Shown one piece after another: positions 202-33,521 of a stretch of DNA of 64,000 nt. The notes beneath the pieces were generated by a model. That model was not told the origin of the DNA and ran no database searches. It saw only the letters and a program-made list of their open reading frames with translations. The stretch lies in the NCBI RefSeq assembly GCF_002952775.1, contig NZ_CP025066.1, positions 1-64,000 of the forward strand, written 5' to 3'. A program made the position numbers and the translations under genes. This stretch comes from Halalkaliarchaeum desulfuricum. Lineage in GTDB: Archaea; Halobacteriota; Halobacteria; Halobacteriales; Haloferacaceae. Position 1 is the stretch's first letter; every line of letters starts with the position of its first letter.

Positions 202-208
202 TTTTATG
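202..208 (+). promoter_or_regulatory. TATA box candidate for orc1
   Basis: TTTTATG lies where a transcript would begin near 230. This argues against the upstream in-frame ATG at 206, which sits inside the element, and for the start at 350. The resulting leader of roughly 120 nt contains the ORB at 323-344, so Orc1 binding could repress its own gene. Confidence 0.4.
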
Positions 209-322
209 CCGCCTCTTCGTCTGCTTCGTTTGCATCATCTGGACTTCGGGTGCGAACCGAACCCTCGAGAATTCGGGCCGACGGTCGGGGAACCCGTCGT
301 GTTACGGTTCGCGCACCGAGGT

Positions 323-344
323 TCTCCACTCGAAACGAAGGGGT
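323..344 (+). other. ORB-like origin recognition box
   Basis: The box contains CCACTCGAAACGAAGGGGT, ends six bases before the orc1 start codon, and matches the box at 3641-3662 in 21 of 22 positions. The dyad-like half followed by a G-run is the known haloarchaeal ORB layout recognised by Orc1/Cdc6. Confidence 0.7.
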
Positions 345-349
345 GCAAT

Positions 350-2212
350 ATGGACGAGGACGACACGAAGCCAGTCGACGACGGCGACAGCAGGGACGAC
401 GAATCACCGGTATCTCCCGGGGGGGACCGAACGGACGACTCGCAATTGGTGGGTGATCCGGAAGGGACGGGTGATCCAGAAGCGACGGGTGATCCAGAAG
501 CGACGGGTGATCCGGAAGGGACGGGTGATCCAGAAGCGACGGGTGATCCGGAAGGGACGGGTGATCCGGAAAGGACGGGTGACTCTCGGGAAGCAACTGA
601 TTCGAACACCGGCAGTGTCGACGACGTGTTGACAACGGGGACGAGCGTGAAGGGATCGGACGGGACGACGGTCGAATCGAGAAGTCGCGACCGATCCTCG
701 CCGGAGGTCGACATCGGGAGCATGGTGCTCGAGGACGACGAGGAGGACGACAAGGGACTGTTCGACGACCTGTTGTCCGGGGAACCGATCTTCGAAAACA
801 AGGAGGTACTCCGGCCGTCGTACACGCCACACAAGCTCCCGCACCGATCGGATCAGATCAACCAGATGGCGACGATTCTCGTGTCCGCCCTCCGGGGGGA
901 GACGCCGTCGAACATCCTGATCTACGGGAAAACCGGGACAGGGAAAACCGCGAGCGCGAAGTTCGTCTCCCAGGAACTCGAATCCACCTCGCAGAAGTAC
1001 GAGGTCCCCTGTGATGTCGAATACATAAACTGCGAAGTGACAGACACCCAGTATCGCGTGCTCGCTCAACTGGCGAACAAGTTTATCGAGAAGAACCAGG
1101 ATCGAATTCAGGAGCGGCTCGAACGGCTTCGCGAGGTCCGTTCGGACGTCGTTCGCAACGGTGACGCCCGGGTGGACGAAAGCGATCTCGAAGTGAACGA
1201 GGGCGATCTCAGGGTGGACGAGAACAGACAGTCGGAGTCCTCGGACGGGGTCGATATCGTGAAGTTCGACAGCGTCGGGGAGCTCGACGACCGGATCGAG
1301 CGCCTCGAGGCGGACGCCGACGGGATGGAGGAAGTTCCGATGACCGGATGGCCGACCGATCGCGTGTACTCGACGTTTTTCGAGGCGATCGATTACCGCG
1401 AGCGCGTCGTCGTCATCATGCTCGACGAAATCGACAAACTCGTCGAAAAGTCGGGCGATGACACGCTGTACAACCTCTCGCGGATGAACTCCGAACTCGA
1501 GAACTCCCGGATCTCGATCATGGGAATCTCGAACGACCTGAAGTTCACCGACTTCCTGGATCCTCGCGTCAAATCGAGCCTCGGCGAGGAAGAGATCGTC
1601 TTTCCGCCGTACGACGCGAACCAGCTCCGGGACATTCTCCAGCACCGCGCGGACGTCGCGTTCAAGCCGGACGCACTCACCGAGGACGTCATTCCGCTGT
1701 GTGCGGCGTTTGCGGCCCAGGAACACGGCGACGCCAGGCGCGCGCTGGATCTGCTCCGGACGGCAGGCGAACTCGCCGAGCGCAGTCAGGCCGATCTCGT
1801 GCGGGAGGAACACGTCAGACAGGCCCAGGACAAGATCGAACTCGACCGGGTCGTGGAGGTCGTCCGAACGCTTCCCACTCAGAGCAAGATCGTCCTGTTT
1901 TCGATCATCCTGCTCGAGAAGAACGGCGTTCACAACATCAACACCGGCGAGGTGTTCAACATCTACAAGCGACTCTGTGACGAGATCGACGCCGACGTGC
2001 TCACTCAACGTCGCGTAACGGACCTCATCTCCGAACTCGACATGCTCGGTATTGTCAATGCTGTCGTCGTCTCGAAGGGGCGGTACGGCAGGACCAAGGA
2101 GATGAACCTCTCGGTGCCGACCGAGGAGACGGAGGCAGTTCTCCTTTCGGACTCCCGGCTCGGGGATATCGAGAACGCACAGCCGTTCGTTCAGGCCCGC
2201 TTCGACAACTGA
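350..2212 (+). CDS. orc1: Orc1/Cdc6 replication initiator
   Basis: A 620-aa origin-binding AAA+ ATPase that marks the origin and loads MCM. The first 180 residues or so are a disordered acidic extension containing seven GDPE(G/A/R)T hexapeptides. The AAA+ core has Walker A GKTGTGKT near residue 192 and Walker B DEID near 358. An acidic, charged insert of about 90 residues (roughly 250-340) lengthens the segment between them. Sensor regions and a C-terminal winged helix (about 500-600) follow. I chose the ATG at 350 because the longer in-frame start at 206 overlaps a TATA-like element. With no frameshift and intact ATPase motifs it should be functional, and the adjacent ORB box makes it the cognate initiator of this origin. 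Length exceeds typical family members because of the acidic N-terminus and the insert. Confidence 0.95.
   Translation: MDEDDTKPVDDGDSRDDESPVSPGGDRTDDSQLVGDPEGTGDPEATGDPEATGDPEGTGDPEATGDPEGTGDPERTGDSREATDSNTGSVDDVLTTGTSVKGSDGTTVESRSRDRSSPEVDIGSMVLEDDEEDDKGLFDDLLSGEPIFENKEVLRPSYTPHKLPHRSDQINQMATILVSALRGETPSNILIYGKTGTGKTASAKFVSQELESTSQKYEVPCDVEYINCEVTDTQYRVLAQLANKFIEKNQDRIQERLERLREVRSDVVRNGDARVDESDLEVNEGDLRVDENRQSESSDGVDIVKFDSVGELDDRIERLEADADGMEEVPMTGWPTDRVYSTFFEAIDYRERVVVIMLDEIDKLVEKSGDDTLYNLSRMNSELENSRISIMGISNDLKFTDFLDPRVKSSLGEEEIVFPPYDANQLRDILQHRADVAFKPDALTEDVIPLCAAFAAQEHGDARRALDLLRTAGELAERSQADLVREEHVRQAQDKIELDRVVEVVRTLPTQSKIVLFSIILLEKNGVHNINTGEVFNIYKRLCDEIDADVLTQRRVTDLISELDMLGIVNAVVVSKGRYGRTKEMNLSVPTEETEAVLLSDSRLGDIENAQPFVQARFDN
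451..576 (+). repeat. 18-bp tandem repeat, seven units, in orc1
   Basis: Seven consecutive units beginning GGGTGATCC encode GDPEGT, GDPEAT or GDPERT. A partial eighth follows. Units differ at only a few positions, which suggests recent expansion by slippage within a disordered linker. Confidence 0.9.
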
Positions 2213-9681: not shown

Positions 9682-11037
9682 ATGAGCAAATCGTTCACGG
9701 TTGCCAGCGCGAAGGGCGGCGTTGGCAAAACGACGACGACGGCGAACCTGGGGGCAGCGCTCGCGGCGGCCGGCCACGATGTAGTGATCGTCGACGCCGA
9801 CATCGGCATGGCAAACCTCGGAGCGATGCTCGGGATCGTTCCCGAGGGACCGACGCTGCACGACGTTCTTTCCGGTAATGCAGCGCTCGAGGAGGCGCTT
9901 TACGAGGGTCCCTGTGGAATGCGCGTGGTTCCGGGAAGCGTCGAACTCGAGGCGTACACGTCCGTCGATTCGGCGAAGCTTCGGGAAGTGGTCGAGACGC
10001 TCTCCCAGTTCGACGGCTACGTGCTCGTCGACAGCAGCGCCGGATTGAGTCACGACAGTTCGCTTCCGCTCGCACTCGGCGACGGGACGCTTCTCGTGTC
10101 GACGCCGGATCGAGCTTCGCTTCTCGACACCGAGAAAACGCGGGAACTGACCGCTCGACTCGGCGGTTCCGTGCTCGGCGTCGCCCTCACGCGGGTGGAA
10201 CCGGACCATCCGATGTTGGAGTCGGCACCGGAGGTGTTAGGCGCCGACGTGATCGCGGAGATTCCCGAAGACGATTCGGTGACCTCGGCTGCCGCCGCAC
10301 AGGAGCCGCTGGAGATCCACGCGCCACAGTCCCCGGCTGCGGTTTCCTACCGCGAACTCGCCAGGGAACTCACCGGTGAAGCGATCCCCGAACCGGAACC
10401 AGAGGCGGAACCGGAACCAGAGGCGGAACTAGAACCGGAACCGGAGTCCGATGTGCAACAGGTCTCAGGCGTGGCGGTTGCCGGCGATTCGGATTCCGGG
10501 AGGGAATCTGCAGCGGAACCAGGTGAGGGAACCGACGTGGATTCGGGATCAGAGCGGGAAACGGAACCGGAACTCGAACTGGATGAAGAACTGGAAACGG
10601 AGCCGGACGAGTCAGAGGGTCTGGAGTTGGACGAGGAGCCAGAACTGGATCAGGAACTCGACGCGGATTCGGATGCTGAGGCGGACGACAACGGTACCGA
10701 AGACGACATCGAACTCGAAGAGCCGATTCTGGAGGCCGACTCCCAGGAACGCACAGACGAACCGGAGGAAACCGAAACCGTAACCGAGTCCGACGGAGAC
10801 GAACCGGAGGAATCCGACGGGGAACTGGCGGAACCGATCCCAGACGCGGAGCCGACGGACCTGGAGGAGGACACAGACGAGTACGAACGAGAGGACGACG
10901 AATCCCTCGAAGAAACGGACGAAAGCGAGCCGGACGAAAGCGAGCCGGATGAGGGCGACGAGGAATCTGTAGAGGAGGAAACAGGCGAAGAGACAGAAGA
11001 GAAGCGCGGCTTTTTCAGCCGGTTGTTCGGTCGATAA
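9682..11037 (+). CDS. minD: MinD-family ATPase with long acidic tail
   Basis: A 451-aa MinD/ParA-type P-loop ATPase predicted to bind the membrane when ATP-bound and position other complexes. The deviant Walker A KGGVGKTTT is at residues 11-19, with switch I-like DADIGMAN near 40 and Walker B-like YVLVDSSAG near 112. From about residue 235 to 435 the chain is almost entirely Glu, Asp, Pro and Ser in short repeats. The last residues, KRGFFSRLFGR, resemble the amphipathic membrane-targeting helix at the end of bacterial MinD. So an ATPase core appears tethered to a membrane anchor by a 200-residue polyanionic linker. Haloarchaea encode several MinD paralogues, one of which (MinD4 in Haloferax) has a long C-terminal extension and positions motility machinery; whether this is its orthologue is uncertain. 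Confidence 0.88.
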   Translation: MSKSFTVASAKGGVGKTTTTANLGAALAAAGHDVVIVDADIGMANLGAMLGIVPEGPTLHDVLSGNAALEEALYEGPCGMRVVPGSVELEAYTSVDSAKLREVVETLSQFDGYVLVDSSAGLSHDSSLPLALGDGTLLVSTPDRASLLDTEKTRELTARLGGSVLGVALTRVEPDHPMLESAPEVLGADVIAEIPEDDSVTSAAAAQEPLEIHAPQSPAAVSYRELARELTGEAIPEPEPEAEPEPEAELEPEPESDVQQVSGVAVAGDSDSGRESAAEPGEGTDVDSGSERETEPELELDEELETEPDESEGLELDEEPELDQELDADSDAEADDNGTEDDIELEEPILEADSQERTDEPEETETVTESDGDEPEESDGELAEPIPDAEPTDLEEDTDEYEREDDESLEETDESEPDESEPDEGDEESVEEETGEETEEKRGFFSRLFGR

Positions 11038-24443: not shown

Positions 24444-25100
24444 TCACCGGCAGGAATCCACCGCTCTGGCGAGTTCCCGGATCCGTGCGGCCGCCGTGCT
24501 TCCCGGGGCGGAGTCAGTGATCGGTGTCTCCGTCCGGACCGATCGGCCCAGGCGCGGGTCGGCCGGCACCACGGTCACCGGCCCGCCCAGCGCAGACGCC
24601 ATCGGCTCCGTCGGCGGAGGATCCACGACGCGGTTGCACGCCGCCCCGGCCAGCCCGGTACCGAGTTCCCGCGCGAGTTCTCGGGTCCGGACCGCGTTCG
24701 CGAGCGCGAACGGCTGGGGGGAGACGACGAGCAGACACGCGTCTGCAAGCGCCAGCGGGACGCCCACGTCAGTGCGCAGCCCTGCCGGACAGTCGACGAC
24801 GAGGGTCCCGCGTTCCCGTTCGAGCGTTTCGAGCACGTCCCGAAGCCGTCCCAGATCCGACGCCCGCGCGCCGGAAAGCGATCGACCGCAGGGGACGAGC
24901 GTGACTGGTCCCTCGCGAACGCACTCCGTCGGGGCCGCGCGCCCGGCGAGCGCGTCGTGGAGGTCCGGCCCCCGTCCTGTCGGGAGGTCGGCCATCCCGA
25001 GATCTGCGTCGACGGCCAGGGCATCGAGCGCGGCGGCGAGGTTGTACGCGACCGTCGTCTTGCCGACGCCGCCCTTCCCACCGGCGATCGCGAGGATCAC
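24444..25100 (-). CDS. ParA/MinD-family ATPase (end of mcm-linked cluster)
   Basis: A 218-aa minimal P-loop ATPase. The deviant Walker A GGKGGVGKTT is at residues 7-16, the switch I-like VDADLGMADL near 33, and Walker B-like TLVVDCPAG near 100. It has no membrane-targeting tail. Its ATG overlaps the stop of the upstream coiled-coil/beta-domain gene by four bases, so it is translationally coupled. Position at the end of a compact operon downstream of mcm suggests a role tied to chromosome maintenance; this is an inference from context only. Confidence 0.85.
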   Translation of the reverse strand: MILAIAGGKGGVGKTTVAYNLAAALDALAVDADLGMADLPTGRGPDLHDALAGRAAPTECVREGPVTLVPCGRSLSGARASDLGRLRDVLETLERERGTLVVDCPAGLRTDVGVPLALADACLLVVSPQPFALANAVRTRELARELGTGLAGAACNRVVDPPPTEPMASALGGPVTVVPADPRLGRSVRTETPITDSAPGSTAAARIRELARAVDSCR

Positions 25101-27275: not shown

Positions 27276-27560
27276 TCACACGTGTTCGATGTCGACTTCG
27301 TCGCGGTCGCAGTCGAGATCACGGAGGCTGACGATCCGTTCGGCGGCGGCGTGGGCCGACGGTGCGACGACCACCGCGCCGGCGGCGGCGTCGGGGGCTG
27401 TCGCCCGAAACAGCGATTCCTCGCCCTCGAAGTCGGTCGCGTACGTCCGCAGGACACCGACCACTCGCTTCTCGGTCGTCGCGAGGTCCGCCTCGCCGTC
27501 TTCGAACGCGCGAAGCGCCTCTTCGACGTTCCGGAGTGCGGAGATCCGATCCATCGTCAC
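27276..27560 (-). CDS. Small conserved protein coupled to mcm
   Basis: A 94-aa protein. GTG at 27560 shares GTGA with the mcm stop, which implies translational coupling; the ATG at 27554 is an alternative. Sequence RISALRNVEEALRAFEDGEADLATTEKRVVGVLRTYATDF predicts two to three helices, then FRATAPDAAAGAVVVAPS and a C-terminal helix. No function recognised. Being coupled to mcm suggests a replication-related role, by inference. Confidence 0.7.
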   Translation of the reverse strand: MTMDRISALRNVEEALRAFEDGEADLATTEKRVVGVLRTYATDFEGEESLFRATAPDAAAGAVVVAPSAHAAAERIVSLRDLDCDRDEVDIEHV

Positions 27561-30500
27561 GTGGTTCGGAGGTGGTTCTGCCGCGGTTCGTACACCTCGC
27601 CCTTCCGACGGAGCTTCTCGATTTCGTCTTCCGCTTTGGTGGGGTCCATTCCCACATCGTCGGCTCGCTCGAGCACCTCGTCGATCGGAGCACCCTCCTC
27701 GAACTCGTCTTCGAGTTCCTCGATCAGCCCTTTGAGGTTCTTGATCCGATCGCGCTGGCTCTTCGAGGTGCCGGTTTCGATCACGTCGGCGTCGAACTGG
27801 CCGGTCTCGGGATCCACGCCGATGTCCTGGAGGCTCGACTCGACGATGTCGATCACCCGCTGTGCGTCCTCGTGGTCGACGGTGTCGGACAGCCGGACGC
27901 GGGCACTCGCCTCCGAGAGCCGCACCAGCGCCTCCAGCTTCCGGGCGGTCACGGGGACGGGGTCGTCCTCGTCGGCGCCCTGGGCGCGCAGGTCGACGTA
28001 AAAGTCCCGGATGGCCTCGCGCGCCTCGTCGGTCATCGTCGGGAAGCAGTTGCGCTTCGCGTAGGCGATGTACTTGCGCAACAGTTCGGCGTCCAGCACC
28101 GGCTCCACCTCCTGGGTGGCCTGTTCGACCTCCGACTCGGTGAACTCCGAGGTGGCGAGCCGCTCTCGCTGGGTGTTCATCTCCCCGGCGTAGTTCGTCG
28201 TGAGGATGTGATCCGCCAGCCGGGCGTCGTGGTCGGGGTCCGGCTGGTCGGTGACGGTGAAGATGAGGTCGAACCGCGAGATCAACGCCGGCTCGAGGTC
28301 GATCTGTTCGCCGAGGGGTTCATACTGGTCGAACCGGCCGTATTTGGGGTTTGCCGCACCCAGCAGCGAACAACGGGACTTGAGGGTGGCGTTTATTCCG
28401 GCCTTGGATATGCTGATCTTTTGTTGTTCCAATGCCTGGTGCATGGCGGACCGATCCTCGGAGTTGTGAACGATCATCCCGTTCGCGACGAAGTTGTGCG
28501 TCCCCTCGACGGTGAGGTCGTAAACTCGGGGTGTAGCGTACGAATTCATTTCATCGAGGGTCGCTCGGATCCGCTCTCTGAATTGTTTTATTTGCCTGAC
28601 TGCGACGTTTTGAACTTCCTCAAAGCGATCTGTGTCGACAACCCCAGTAAACCACCGTGACACAGTTGATGCGGAAACATCCAAGCCGTCCGACAATTCG
28701 GCAAAGGATATCTGATGCCGTTGTAATTCTTTTCGTAGTGACTTCCAATCGTTCCCAATTTCAATGTCGTTTTTCAGAAGTTTGCGTGCGTTCGATTCCG
28801 CAAGATCAACTGAACATCCGAGCATATCTGCAAGTTGTTCTCTGTAAATTGGGATACGGTCGGAAGACGAATTAGCACTCACGACTTCGGTGCTTTCGAC
28901 CTTTCGCCATTTGACGTCTCCTTTGATAAGAACAGACAGGGTTGACAAGTCTACAGTAGCTATTTCACGCAGGATTGATTTGAACCGTTCTACGATGGTT
29001 TCCCGCAGAACTTCATCATCTCCCCATAGTCGAGAGATTTTTTGTTGACTGAATGGTGTTCCGATAGCAAGTTCCGACTGCGAAACATGATATCGACCTT
29101 TGAGAGTCGTAAGCACTGACCAGGTCGGTTCCCTATCCAGAACTTCCTGATCTGTTTCTGCTCTTTCTTTCCGACGCTTGAATGTAGCGAGGATTGTTTT
29201 TGCACGCTGGATTGATACATTCGCCTTACCGCTCTCGAAGTCACAGTATGTTCCCTTATTTATCCCACACTCAGACTGATGGAGACGAAGATTTCCACGG
29301 ATTTCCTGTAGATAATCTCCGATCTCGGGAACGACATTGAGAATCGTTCGATCCCCGTCTACGATCTCAAGTACGTCCATTAACGCATTCTGCTTCCGGG
29401 TGAGTGTGAATCCAATGTGGCGCGCAAAGCGGTTGAGGGAATCGGCGTCGGTTATCGTTAATACATGTAGATCACGTTTCTCTTTGCGCTCTCTCGTTCG
29501 TAGTTGGCTGGTAATCCCGAACTGTAGAAGAAGAATACGGGTCCCACATAATATTTCCCGACTCGAGGAGTACACTCTGACATTACCTGTCTGAGTATCG
29601 ACCGACCCCTCGCTGTCAACGAGAGCGCGTACGAACGCCTTTTTCTCTCTTGTGGATCCTTCCGTAACCCACGTCGGAAACGCTTTTCCATCGTAATTCT
29701 CGAGATTCATTCCGGCTTCGAGAACGGAGTCCGCATACCTTCGACCGTGCAGACGTACCGTTTCGACGCCATCTTCTCGTTGTTCACTTTCATGTCTTAC
29801 AGGATCGGAACCGAAAGCAGTCAGACACGCTGATTCAAAGTCCCGCAATAATTCTTCCTCTGAATTCGTAAATCGGATTCCGTAGCAGCCACCAGAGCGA
29901 TCGTATACGATATTTCCATCACCGGAAAGATAACCGAGTATGGCCGCTTTTGCCTCCTGTGGGTCTGAATATTGGTGATTTACTTGGGTTTGTGGCTTGC
30001 TGTTGGTGTCAATTTCTGCAGTAATGGGACCTCCGTCACACGCCGGGGTAGGTATCGTGCGTGGGACATACACCCAGTCGTCCTTTTCAAGGTCACTTGC
30101 TGCACGTGTCTTTCGTTCTCCACCTTCCAACACGAAGAATGGATGGTCCTGGGTAGCGGTGAGTTGCTCTCCTGTCTGTAGAGTCACTTTGCACAGGCTT
30201 TCCGGAGCGTGGTATGCATGAATTGCCGTGACAGGTCTTTTGACGAGATTCCCGTCCTCTGCCATTGTCCACACGGTGAAGTCGACATCCCGAATGGTCT
30301 GTCCGTTTTGCAGTTGTTCTATCTCACCGGATGATTTGGCCTCTCGAGCCAGTTCTCCGATTTGCCGAACACTCCCATCACCCACACTCACAAGAGTTTC
30401 ACCAGTCACACACCGCATTTTGTCCAGTTCGTCGACTGCGGCGATCCCCTTATCAGCGAGCACGAGCGCCCCGGCCTCCAGTGTCCACTGCTGGCCGTCG

Positions 30501-33184
30501 CCGAAGTCGTCGCGTACAGCTGCAGCCGTGTTGTGCGTGACGATCCCGTTTCCGACGAAGTTGTGCGTTTCCGGGACTGTCAGATCGAATACTTCTTTTT
30601 CACCGGTGTCGACCGCAGAAACAACTTTGTCCCAGACCAGTGAAGCTTCGGCTACTTCCTCAACGAAGGGACGATAATCCCCGAGATCACGCTCGGCGAG
30701 GATGTTATTAGTGCGTTCTCGGCTTGGGTTGTTCCCTCGAATAATATTTTGATAATAATCCCCACCCGCTCCGTCCGTTTTTATGAGCGTTTTTCCGATT
30801 GGGAGCCGCTCCCCACGTCGGGTCGTGTCCTCTACGATGGTCTTTAACGCTGCCTCTTTTTTTGTCGAGTTGAACCCTATTTGCTCAGCAAAGACATCGA
30901 TATCCTTTCCATAAATAGTGAGATGGGTTTGGATCGATTTGGATTCGATTTCGTATCCATTTTTAAGTACAGTAGTTCCTCGTCGGTCGCGTTCTCTTCG
31001 CCGTGCACGTATGCCGTACGACTCGAGCATACGTTGGATCTGACGGGCAAACTCATCATCTATTGTCGAGAATTGGATGCTTGAGCCACCCTGTCTTCGA
31101 GCCGAGACACAGCCGTCTGCGTCAAACAGCCCTTGAAGGAACGCGTCAGCGTGTTCTGCCGTCATCAGGCGCGGTTCGAGGCCGATATCGGTTTTTGGTG
31201 ACTCGACGCCGAGGTTGCTAAAGAACCGCGCGACTGTCACACTATGGAAACGAATACATGGGACTCGATTCTCCTGATATTCGATTTCTACTGATCTATC
31301 GAACGTCGATTTGATGCACTCGGCTGCCTTTCGGAGAAGTTCTTCGTCCGAGTTAGAGATCCGAACGTGTCCTCTGTTTTCACCCCTTGAAGAGACGGAT
31401 ACATCACCATCACCGAATACGAGTCCAATAAGGTACATCAGGTCTTCATCGAATCGGTCCGGAATACGGATATCGTGGCCATGACGAAGCATCGCCCGGT
31501 CTATCTCGATATCCTCGAGATCCGCATCTATCGCCTCAAGAATCCGGTCAAGTTTATCAAGAGGTAGGTACCGATTCGCAAGGGAGTCATATATAAAGTC
31601 CTCCGACAAGTCAAGCGCAGCAGCAGCTTCACGGAGTGTACCGAACCTCTCAAAAAGCTGCTGACGCAGGAATGTAATCGACTCTTCGGTCGGTTTGACC
31701 TTCTCCTGTGTAAACTCGATGAAGTCACGAACTGGTGGACTGTGTTTATTAACCTCTTTGTATTTCGGTACTGCCACGTGATCGCCTGATTTGATATCCG
31801 AAATCTCGCGCCACTCGATCCCCCTCTCGCCACAGACGAGGACGGGCGTGTTGACCGATGCTTCCAACTCCTTTCCGTGCGCTGTTTCGATCCGCCGGCA
31901 CGGCTTCTCGGGCATTCGCCAGACGTGAGAACTCTCGCGTAGTTCCATCTCGCCGCTTTCGCGGTCGAAGCTGTAGACTTCGTGGTCGCTTTCGGCAGCG
32001 GTGTCTTCGTCTACGGGATCAGGGTGGTGTTCCTCTGCAAGTTCGCGGATTGGCATGAAGCCTTCCGCGGTGTGAATCTTCGTATCACCGGTCACGCACA
32101 GCCCTGCTGAGCTGCTGCCTTTCCCCGAGGTGTACACCGATCTCGGGGCGATATTTTGTATGTATGAAAGTAGCTGGGACTTCCCAGTACCGGGGTCCCC
32201 GATCAACAGCATGTGCAGGTCCCCCCGGATCCGGGAGCCGTCGGGGAGGTGTTTGGTAACGCCGGAAAACAACTGGAGAATCATCGCGAGCTTCTCCTCT
32301 TCGAAACCGTAGATCGACGGCGCGACCGAATCCACCATCTGCTGGTAGATGTCCTCCTCGCTCGACCGCTCGATGATGTCCTGGACGTCCTCCTGGGTGA
32401 TGTCCATGTCCTCGAACTCCTCGTCCTCGATCGAGATGGAGACGCCGTCCATGTACAGATCGAAGACGGGAGTTTTCTCGTTGCCGTCGGTCATCTGCTC
32501 GATGTGCAACACGCCGACGACGGTGACGTGGTCGCCCGGCGTCACCTTGCCGGTGATGTCGTCTACGATGTCGACGTCGATCGCCTGCGGGGTCTGACCG
32601 CCGCGCAGCCCCTCGGGCGACTCCTGGACGCGGAGCTTCTGGGAGTCGATGAACTCCGACTGGTCGTGGTTCACGCGGAACGGGCCCTGTCGCTCACAGC
32701 CCTGACACTCGTGGGGCTCCTGGAACCCCGACTCCGACTGGGGGATGTACGTCATCGTGCCGCAGCGCTGGCACTCGAAGGCGGCCTCGGTGACCTTCGG
32801 ACGGACGTCGGTTGCCTTCCGGACGATCCCCTGGACGGCGATCATCCGGCCGATGTGGTCGTCCTGGACGCGGATTCCCCGGATGTCGATCGTCTTCGAC
32901 CGCGGGAGGTTCTCGACCCGAACGTGCGCCTGGCCGAGACTCACGTCCGCCGGGAGGTCGTACAGCCGCAGCGCCTCCTCGGCGTACTCGCGGAACTGCT
33001 CGGGCTTTGCGAGGTAGTCCTCCGCGAGGTCGGGATCGAACGTGTACAGGTCGTCGTAGTCGACGTACAGCGACCGCTGTTCGTTGGGGTACCGCTGGGC
33101 GAGTTGCCCGATCTCGTCGCGGTAGTAGTTGCGATAAAACTGGATGAATCGCTCGGTGAGTTCGTCCGTTCCAGCCGTGGCCAT
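27557..33184 (-). CDS. mcm: MCM replicative helicase with two inteins
   Basis: The unspliced product is 1875 aa from ATG 33184 (MATAGTDELTERF); removal of the inteins (523 and 650 aa) leaves a 702-aa MCM, the normal haloarchaeal size. The N-terminal OB domain contains a C4 zinc finger (CQRC...CQGC). The helicase core has Walker A GDPGTGKSQ (about residues 329-337), Walker B VDELDKM and the arginine finger region SRFDLIF, followed by a C-terminal winged helix. Intein 1 interrupts SSSAGL/T shortly after Walker A, and intein 2 interrupts DKMR/S directly after Walker B. Without splicing the helicase cannot work. The gene is divergent from atpH. The flanking small gene at its 3' end is translationally coupled. 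Confidence 0.95.
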   Translation of the reverse strand: MATAGTDELTERFIQFYRNYYRDEIGQLAQRYPNEQRSLYVDYDDLYTFDPDLAEDYLAKPEQFREYAEEALRLYDLPADVSLGQAHVRVENLPRSKTIDIRGIRVQDDHIGRMIAVQGIVRKATDVRPKVTEAAFECQRCGTMTYIPQSESGFQEPHECQGCERQGPFRVNHDQSEFIDSQKLRVQESPEGLRGGQTPQAIDVDIVDDITGKVTPGDHVTVVGVLHIEQMTDGNEKTPVFDLYMDGVSISIEDEEFEDMDITQEDVQDIIERSSEEDIYQQMVDSVAPSIYGFEEEKLAMILQLFSGVTKHLPDGSRIRGDLHMLLIGDPGTGKSQLLSYIQNIAPRSVYTSGKGSSSAGLCVTGDTKIHTAEGFMPIRELAEEHHPDPVDEDTAAESDHEVYSFDRESGEMELRESSHVWRMPEKPCRRIETAHGKELEASVNTPVLVCGERGIEWREISDIKSGDHVAVPKYKEVNKHSPPVRDFIEFTQEKVKPTEESITFLRQQLFERFGTLREAAAALDLSEDFIYDSLANRYLPLDKLDRILEAIDADLEDIEIDRAMLRHGHDIRIPDRFDEDLMYLIGLVFGDGDVSVSSRGENRGHVRISNSDEELLRKAAECIKSTFDRSVEIEYQENRVPCIRFHSVTVARFFSNLGVESPKTDIGLEPRLMTAEHADAFLQGLFDADGCVSARRQGGSSIQFSTIDDEFARQIQRMLESYGIRARRRERDRRGTTVLKNGYEIESKSIQTHLTIYGKDIDVFAEQIGFNSTKKEAALKTIVEDTTRRGERLPIGKTLIKTDGAGGDYYQNIIRGNNPSRERTNNILAERDLGDYRPFVEEVAEASLVWDKVVSAVDTGEKEVFDLTVPETHNFVGNGIVTHNTAAAVRDDFGDGQQWTLEAGALVLADKGIAAVDELDKMRCVTGETLVSVGDGSVRQIGELAREAKSSGEIEQLQNGQTIRDVDFTVWTMAEDGNLVKRPVTAIHAYHAPESLCKVTLQTGEQLTATQDHPFFVLEGGERKTRAASDLEKDDWVYVPRTIPTPACDGGPITAEIDTNSKPQTQVNHQYSDPQEAKAAILGYLSGDGNIVYDRSGGCYGIRFTNSEEELLRDFESACLTAFGSDPVRHESEQREDGVETVRLHGRRYADSVLEAGMNLENYDGKAFPTWVTEGSTREKKAFVRALVDSEGSVDTQTGNVRVYSSSREILCGTRILLLQFGITSQLRTRERKEKRDLHVLTITDADSLNRFARHIGFTLTRKQNALMDVLEIVDGDRTILNVVPEIGDYLQEIRGNLRLHQSECGINKGTYCDFESGKANVSIQRAKTILATFKRRKERAETDQEVLDREPTWSVLTTLKGRYHVSQSELAIGTPFSQQKISRLWGDDEVLRETIVERFKSILREIATVDLSTLSVLIKGDVKWRKVESTEVVSANSSSDRIPIYREQLADMLGCSVDLAESNARKLLKNDIEIGNDWKSLRKELQRHQISFAELSDGLDVSASTVSRWFTGVVDTDRFEEVQNVAVRQIKQFRERIRATLDEMNSYATPRVYDLTVEGTHNFVANGMIVHNSEDRSAMHQALEQQKISISKAGINATLKSRCSLLGAANPKYGRFDQYEPLGEQIDLEPALISRFDLIFTVTDQPDPDHDARLADHILTTNYAGEMNTQRERLATSEFTESEVEQATQEVEPVLDAELLRKYIAYAKRNCFPTMTDEAREAIRDFYVDLRAQGADEDDPVPVTARKLEALVRLSEASARVRLSDTVDHEDAQRVIDIVESSLQDIGVDPETGQFDADVIETGTSKSQRDRIKNLKGLIEELEDEFEEGAPIDEVLERADDVGMDPTKAEDEIEKLRRKGEVYEPRQNHLRTT
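28463..30412 (-). mobile_element. Intein 2 of mcm (650 aa) with LAGLIDADG endonuclease and HTH array
   Basis: Starts with Cys in CVTGETL and ends with VHN before Ser+1. The LAGLIDADG motifs are ILGYLSGDGNIV (about residues 158-169) and VRALVDSEGSVD (about 261-272), both retaining an acidic catalytic residue. It is about 120 residues longer than intein 1. The extra segment (about 330-600) contains several HTH-like stretches: SECGINKGTYCDFE, SQSELAIGTPFSQQKISR and FAELSDGLDVSASTVSRWF. Base composition is visibly AT-richer than flanking exteins. THNFVANGMIVHN is the standard C-terminal splicing motif. Confidence 0.93.
30530..32098 (-). mobile_element. Intein 1 of mcm (523 aa) with LAGLIDADG endonuclease
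   Basis: Starts with Cys in CVTGDTKIH and ends THNFVGNGIVTHN before Thr+1. LAGLIDADG motifs are LIGLVFGDGDVS (about residues 220-231) and LQGLFDADGCVS (about 320-331), with both catalytic Asp present. An HTH-like segment (TLREAAAALDLSEDFIYD) precedes the endonuclease. No stop codon or frameshift, so both splicing and homing look intact. AT-rich relative to the exteins. The 39-aa extein between the two inteins (30413-30529) carries Walker B. Confidence 0.93.
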
Positions 33185-33521
33185 CGCGACGGGATACGTC
33201 GGCATCACGTATGAACCTCATGTTCGCAGCGCGAAAGTGAACGCTCGCCCACCCGGGGCAGCGAGTCGCAAAGGTTTCCGTGCTCAATCTGGAACGGAGC
33301 CACATGCAGGTTGAGGCGCCGCACGTCGCGTGGTTCCTCGGCCAGACGCCGACGCCTACCGGCCAGTTGGCCAGTTCGAGCTCCTGTCCGGACTCCCCGT
33401 GTGGGCACAGGTGCTCGTTATCCTGCCGTTCTCGTCGGCGGGACGTTCGGACGCTACCGGCCGGTGCGTCCGGGTTTCGCAAACACCTTATACGCCGATT
33501 TGCATGTTGTACACGACGAAT
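33185..33521. other. Intergenic region between mcm and atpH
   Basis: 337 bp without a gene I can support. It must carry the divergent promoters: minus-strand TTCATACG near 33210 for mcm and CCTTATACG at 33487-33495 for atpH, the latter about 27 nt before its ATG. The GC-rich middle holds only open frames without coding character. I see no tRNA or clear repeat. Confidence 0.5.
33487..33495 (+). promoter_or_regulatory. Promoter (TATA) of the ATP synthase operon
   Basis: CCTTATACG ends 26 nt before the atpH ATG, so the operon mRNA is probably leaderless or nearly so. Confidence 0.6.

Follow-up and report, generated by a model that had tools for sequence, protein, structure and literature searches.

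How does a MinD ATPase operate when the peptide that would fasten it to the membrane stands about 200 residues away from its catalytic core? The question is raised by an open reading frame (ORF) of Halalkaliarchaeum desulfuricum at 9682-11037 on the forward strand of the 64,000-nucleotide stretch of DNA analysed here (NZ_CP025066.1, positions 1 to 64,000; hereinafter the window), which encodes 451 amino acids and is free of frameshifts and stop codons. A preliminary description had read its product as a MinD domain followed by an acidic linker of about 200 residues and a MinD-like end. All three parts are confirmed: residues 5-236 match the archaeal MinD profile TIGR01969 (minD_arch) with 230.9 bits, passing the cut-off of 201.75, the linker consists of 48% Asp/Glu and 3% Lys/Arg, and the chain terminates in KRGFFSRLFGR.

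The ATPase core (residues 1-232; 9682-10377, forward strand) is predicted by AlphaFold2 as a folded domain with pLDDT mostly above 90, and the nearest solved chain is 1hyq_A (E 1.5e-46). It contains the two MinD hallmarks, a deviant Walker A motif of the form KGGxGKT (KGGVGKTT, residues 11-18; 9712-9735, forward strand) and the Walker B aspartate D117 in VLVDSSAG (codon at 10030-10032, forward strand). In an alignment of 22 sequences (alignment A1), K11, G12, G13, G15, K16, T17 and D117 are all invariant. Comparison of the core between the window's genome (G000) and its congener G015 gives dN of 0.039 and dS of 0.51, a dN/dS of ~0.08 that indicates purifying selection on the core in this pair, although as a pairwise ratio it averages both lineages.

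In a tree of 89 cores, the 64 haloarchaeal rows of MinD4 type form a single clade (support 96/96), distinct from two other MinD paralogue clades and from a methanogen MinD group that stands as its sister; an inner f1 fork is weak (84/73). Paralogues from the window's genome (L003 and L004) and from Haloferax (L224, L225, L230 and L231) fall outside the clade. Genus g28 was recognised as Haloferax through G090, one of its genomes, which matches a stretch of an H. larsenii plasmid at 99% identity; none of the genomes could be assigned to H. volcanii itself. Only one paralogue per genome is a long MinD with the end motif (585-721 aa) in six of six Haloferax genomes, and in the Haloferax genome G064 its distances to the other MinD paralogues are 72 kb and 262 kb, a spacing with which the numbering HVO_0225/0322/0595 is presumably consistent; Haloferax volcanii MinD4 is HVO_0322. 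We call the window gene minD4 because it belongs to this clade and because the sole long-tailed Haloferax paralogue matches the published extended C-terminal tail. Judged by sequence, its product and Haloferax MinD4 are orthologues, and it has an extended tail that ends in a MinD-type peptide.

Two further MinD genes of the same genome were recorded. A 218-aa paralogue in the window (24444-25100, reverse strand) scores 130.7 bits against TIGR01969, below the cut-off, groups with the Haloferax paralogue ~72-86 kb from MinD4, and is probably MinD1; the 140-locus match obtained with a minD1 query was minD4 itself. Outside the window, L002 (G000:C1:547232-547915), a divergent 287-aa MinD without the membrane peptide, occupies a long branch within the haloarchaeal MinD4 clade near f6 and is possibly an acquired second copy.

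The end peptide (residues 441-451; 11002-11034, forward strand), in which AlphaFold2 places a single short helix (residues 444-449), had been likened to the membrane-targeting helix of bacterial MinD, here positioned far from the ATPase, and both sequence and descent support the likeness. Searching other haloarchaeal MinD proteins, we found G-[FLI]-[FLI]-x-[RW]-[LFI]-[LFI] or a close variant at the end of 127 of the 129 homologues fetched as best hits from the 148 genomes of the family. The two outside this count are L120, which runs off its contig, and L096, whose sequence breaks at a stretch of N and shows GFLGRLFR in a different frame. R447 is invariant in alignment A1 and F444 and F449 are nearly so. 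GFFSRLFGR is identical in G015 with six of its nine codons different, that is, through synonymous changes only. The motif is not a common ending: 1 of 47 window ORFs, that of MinD4, has it at the C-terminus, and GF[FL]xR[LF][LF] occurs five times in the genome, three of the other four occurrences having been read and found not to be comparable C-termini. These observations support the tail as a MinD-type membrane-targeting sequence, which would bind the membrane. The hydrophobic moment was dropped as a test of the anchor, since it fails even on the E. coli MinD peptide (0.27, shuffled mean 0.37) and is uninformative for the window peptide as well (0.27, below the shuffled mean of 0.44).

Between core and end peptide lies the linker (residues 233-440, ~208 residues; 10378-11001, forward strand), the most acidic stretch among 47 scored window ORFs (best 100 residues 55% Asp/Glu, median 25%). 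AlphaFold2 assigns it no secondary structure and leaves residues ~232-443 unstructured, with pLDDT mostly 40-50. The acidic repeat had been expected to vary easily in length, and it does: of the two congeneric genomes examined, the window's has a linker of 210 residues and G015 one of 330, the additional 120 residues arising mostly through a tandem array of a ESDESEELELGE-like unit. Pairwise alignment places copies of the unit that is expanded to a long array in G015 (ELELDEELE / DESEGLELDEE) at 10570-10638 of the window, forward strand. Tandem Repeats Finder detects an 18-bp repeat at 10390-10429 (2.2 copies, 100%) and a 15-bp repeat at 10916-10949 (2.3 copies, 100%), both on the forward strand, and, in L009, arrays built of 36-48 bp units. 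Across the 129 family homologues, the spacer between core and end motif ranges from 16 to 496 residues with a median of 240. The linker is just 16-81 residues in genus g24, and the length of the tether itself is therefore not strictly needed.

Relatives outside the family place the anchor much closer to the core. The spacer before the end peptide is 13 residues in E. coli MinD, a related end motif follows after 12-18 residues in 72 of 72 methanogen/ANME relatives, and in two genomes of the same order but other families (f5 and f11) only 26-27 residues, end peptide included, follow the core. The simplest reading is an ancestral anchor to which haloarchaea added the long tether as an elaboration. 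The preliminary description had made its proposal depend on orthologues retaining the tail, which holds for the window's family and fails in one other: the Natrialbaceae-type orthologues, 12 from f4 and the Natronobiforma locus L202, lack the end peptide in 13 of 13 cases, and all end within ~80 residues of the core. I[PT][DE]A[ED] is found in the last 12 residues of all 13 (shuffled mean 0.06). These orthologues are nested among anchored f7 sequences in the core tree, and loss of the anchor is therefore likelier than primitive absence. Haloarculaceae-type orthologues (n=11) have shorter, degenerate ends, mostly without Arg, such as GVFGLFN. With ends degenerate in one group and absent in the other, the anchor is thus not essential to every MinD4. 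Both group labels are our own; L202 is the sole named locus, and the label given to f3 is a guess.

The linker also carries short conserved motifs, which the earlier reading of the sequence had not considered. Despite the poor alignment of the remaining linkers, ELAEPIPDAEP is unchanged between the window and G015; it contains the PIPDAE island (residues 385-390; 10834-10851, forward strand), an instance of [ILV]P[DEQ]A[ED]. A second island, EEPILEA (10717-10737, forward strand), is near-identical in G015 (EEPIQEA). When short patterns were counted without preselection in 131 linkers from 28 groups, the IP.AE, IPF, LV..AE and VY.T.L types ranked highest, each in 6-11 groups versus well below one in shuffled linkers. 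Targeted patterns, refined after inspection of the data and compared with shuffles that preserve composition and do not model shared ancestry, give 84 of 138 linkers for [AVSIT][IVL]PF (shuffled mean 0.5), 42 of 138 for the GVYxTxL type (0.1) and 44 of 138 for [ILV]P[DEQ]A[ED] (4.6). None of the six patterns tried is present in 4 of the 28 groups (g3, g18, g24 and g26), and the window linker itself has PIPDAE and lacks the VYTTSL and IPF islands. The linker thus looks like more than filler. Among the papers accessible to our search, none was found to describe such motifs or a variable length for the linker of MinD4, which makes for a weak negative.

These findings bear on two ways in which the tail might be simpler, or other, than an anchor on a functional tether. 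In one, the linker would be a neutral spacer, acidic in the manner of any soluble haloarchaeal protein and drifting in length by repeat slippage, which would leave function to the core and membrane peptide alone. The span of linker lengths from 16 to 496 residues, the repeat array separating the two congeners and the very short linkers of g24 are what such drift would produce, whereas the three motif types far above shuffled expectation, the island held constant between congeners and the I[PT][DE]A[ED] end kept throughout the Natrialbaceae-type orthologues are not, and we consider a merely passive spacer improbable. In the other, the end peptide would dock onto a protein rather than the membrane. 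Its calculated amphipathicity does not exceed that of shuffles, and protein binding by a short peptide at the end of a disordered linker has a precedent in FtsZ; against this, the peptide shares motif type, position and descent with the ends of E. coli and methanogen MinD, and a 2020 study of Haloferax MinD4 reportedly found the membrane-targeting sequence essential for oscillation. We regard this second possibility as very unlikely.

The gene's surroundings were compared in search of an operon partner. Apart from g17637, which matched near two minD4 loci of genus g17, none of the neighbouring genes in the window was found next to minD4 in other genomes, most loci being available with only ~2 kb of flank. 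A neighbour that does recur in other genera (22 groups) looks, by eye, like a putative arginyl-tRNA synthetase, and therefore no MinE-like partner is suggested. Two replication genes of the window were recorded alongside: an MCM replicative helicase of 1883 aa (27557-33208, reverse strand) interrupted by intein sequence, with two Intein_splicing and four LAGLIDADG_3 stretches, and, at the contig start, a 668-aa Orc1/Cdc6-like initiator (206-2212, forward strand) whose tblastn matches to plasmid orc1/cdc6 are partial and in two pieces, so that the ORF may hold an insert.

In Haloferax, MinD4 is linked to motility. PMC11621097 describes its extended C-terminal tail and reports that truncation of this tail impairs motility, that oscillation persists when Walker A or Walker B is mutated, and that polar caps require the Walker motifs. 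In the 99.99% complete genome of the window's species, by comparison, we found no archaellin (PF01917), no CheW and no match to MinE (PF03776; three control genomes were positive), and MinD4 is nevertheless intact. A lone archaellum-type PF04659 protein (L345, G000:C1:3178000-3189000) was found in this genome, and PF04659 was accordingly replaced by archaellin as the archaellum marker. Among 148 family genomes, 129 yielded fetched homologues; of the other 19, three have a tailed MinD4 (L248, L251 and L252) and 16 have none by reading, 13 of these giving 255-258 aa paralogues as best hits (the tree includes three such paralogues) and three giving weak hits only. Archaellin is absent from 11 of the 16 MinD4-less genomes (present in 5) and from 12 of the 132 MinD4-bearing ones (present in 120), counts that are uncorrected for kinship and include several incomplete genomes. 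The corresponding figures for PF04659 are 11 and 5 versus 9 and 123, a similar association. The archaellin match of G049 was below the cut-off and scored absent, and the negatives G133 and G143 were assigned by elimination. Within genus g6, archaellin is absent from 5 of 5 MinD4-less genomes and present in 12 of 12 MinD4-bearing ones.

The window's lineage may have lost motility recently, or its MinD4 may serve another cargo. Were the first the whole story, minD4 would persist here as a relic, in keeping with the missing archaellin and CheW, with the joint loss trend across the family and with the state of the former locus: the congener G015 has an archaellin locus, and of 11 ORFs in its neighbouring stretch two match the corresponding stretch of the window's genome and nine have no match there, beside the single PF04659 protein left. 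The low dN/dS of the core, though averaged over both lineages, the purely synonymous changes in the nine-residue tail and the undamaged frame argue against decay, and we judge a relic quite unlikely. The preliminary description offered a different account, in which the distant anchor uncouples membrane release from the ATP switch; the protein would then stay at the membrane whatever its nucleotide state, with the dynamics driven by another oscillator. No MinE family match exists in this genome, which favours such decoupling; a dimer with two tails should still bind and switch through avidity, which does not. In B. subtilis MinD, moreover, the anchor lies near the core. This protein is also membrane-bound as a monomer according to PMC13246001, and loose coupling therefore needs no long linker. 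The Walker-independent oscillation of Haloferax MinD4 likewise speaks for decoupling, although the linker was not the variable in those experiments and the Walker motifs are still needed for polar caps. Loose coupling plausibly fits that oscillation, and decoupling is not demanded by the sequence; on balance we hold the decoupling account to be doubtful, if less so than the spacer and relic readings.

The mechanism that we consider most likely, with reasonable though far from full confidence, combines a flexible tether, a 'fishing-line' anchor, with a docking strip. The core would dimerise upon ATP binding, as in its family, and each chain would end in an amphipathic membrane-targeting peptide of MinD type. 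The common ancestor with methanogen MinD probably had this peptide ~13 residues past the core; in haloarchaea the spacer would have extended into a long acidic tether, disordered and lengthened or shortened through tandem repeats. The two tails of the ATP-bound dimer would hold it at the membrane by avidity while leaving its height and orientation free, and the short conserved motifs of the linker may bind partners that regulate MinD4 or deliver it to the cell pole, a layout that would resemble FtsZ in its core, variable disordered linker and conserved end peptide. A bolder version, which we put forward only tentatively, makes the linker a multi-motif docking strip that sets the position of MinD4 through a MinE-free partner, with the ATPase only consolidating polar caps, the anchor optional (lost in Natrialbaceae-type orthologues with an IPDAE-like end kept) and the cargo in the window's species other than archaella or chemoreceptor arrays.

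The oscillation of Haloferax MinD4 without its ATPase is unexplained by the bacterial MinDE model, which turns attention to the tail as the part so far unexplored. Naturally occurring forms with spacers of 13, 16-81, about 200 and 496 residues, with the anchor present, degenerate or lost, and with three motifs provide a short list for dissecting its function, and the retention of MinD4 without detectable archaellin or CheW suggests a cargo perhaps not limited to motility. The architecture as such is largely known already from Haloferax MinD4. What our search did not find in print is the conserved end behind a spacer of graded length, the repeat expansion that separates the congeners, the motif islands of the linker, the loss of the anchor in Natrialbaceae-type orthologues, and a complete genome that retains MinD4 with neither archaellin nor CheW detected.

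The comparison with Haloferax MinD4 that had been proposed for this protein places both in the same clade with the same three-part layout of core, linker and end, the Haloferax homologues being 585-735 aa long and ending in KKKGFFSRFLG or similar. The window linker is shorter (~208 versus 345-496 residues) and more acidic (48% versus 32-36% Asp/Glu in two Haloferax), and its host is without detectable archaellin and CheW. FtsZ, which is normally membrane-tethered via partner proteins, unlike the anchor proposed for MinD4, is a works-like analogy only, the folds being unrelated; its variable disordered linker between NTPase core and tethering peptide is described in PMC7320174. Methanogen/ANME MinD proteins (L143-L215 without L202) form the sister clade and share the end-motif type, in chains of 259-267 aa with the short spacer given above. 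E. coli MinD has the same ATPase core family and the same C-terminal K-x-GF-x-x-RLFG (KKGFLKRLFGG versus KRGFFSRLFGR in the window), and differs in its MinE partner, not found in the window's genome, and in a spacer of 13 residues where the window protein has ~208.
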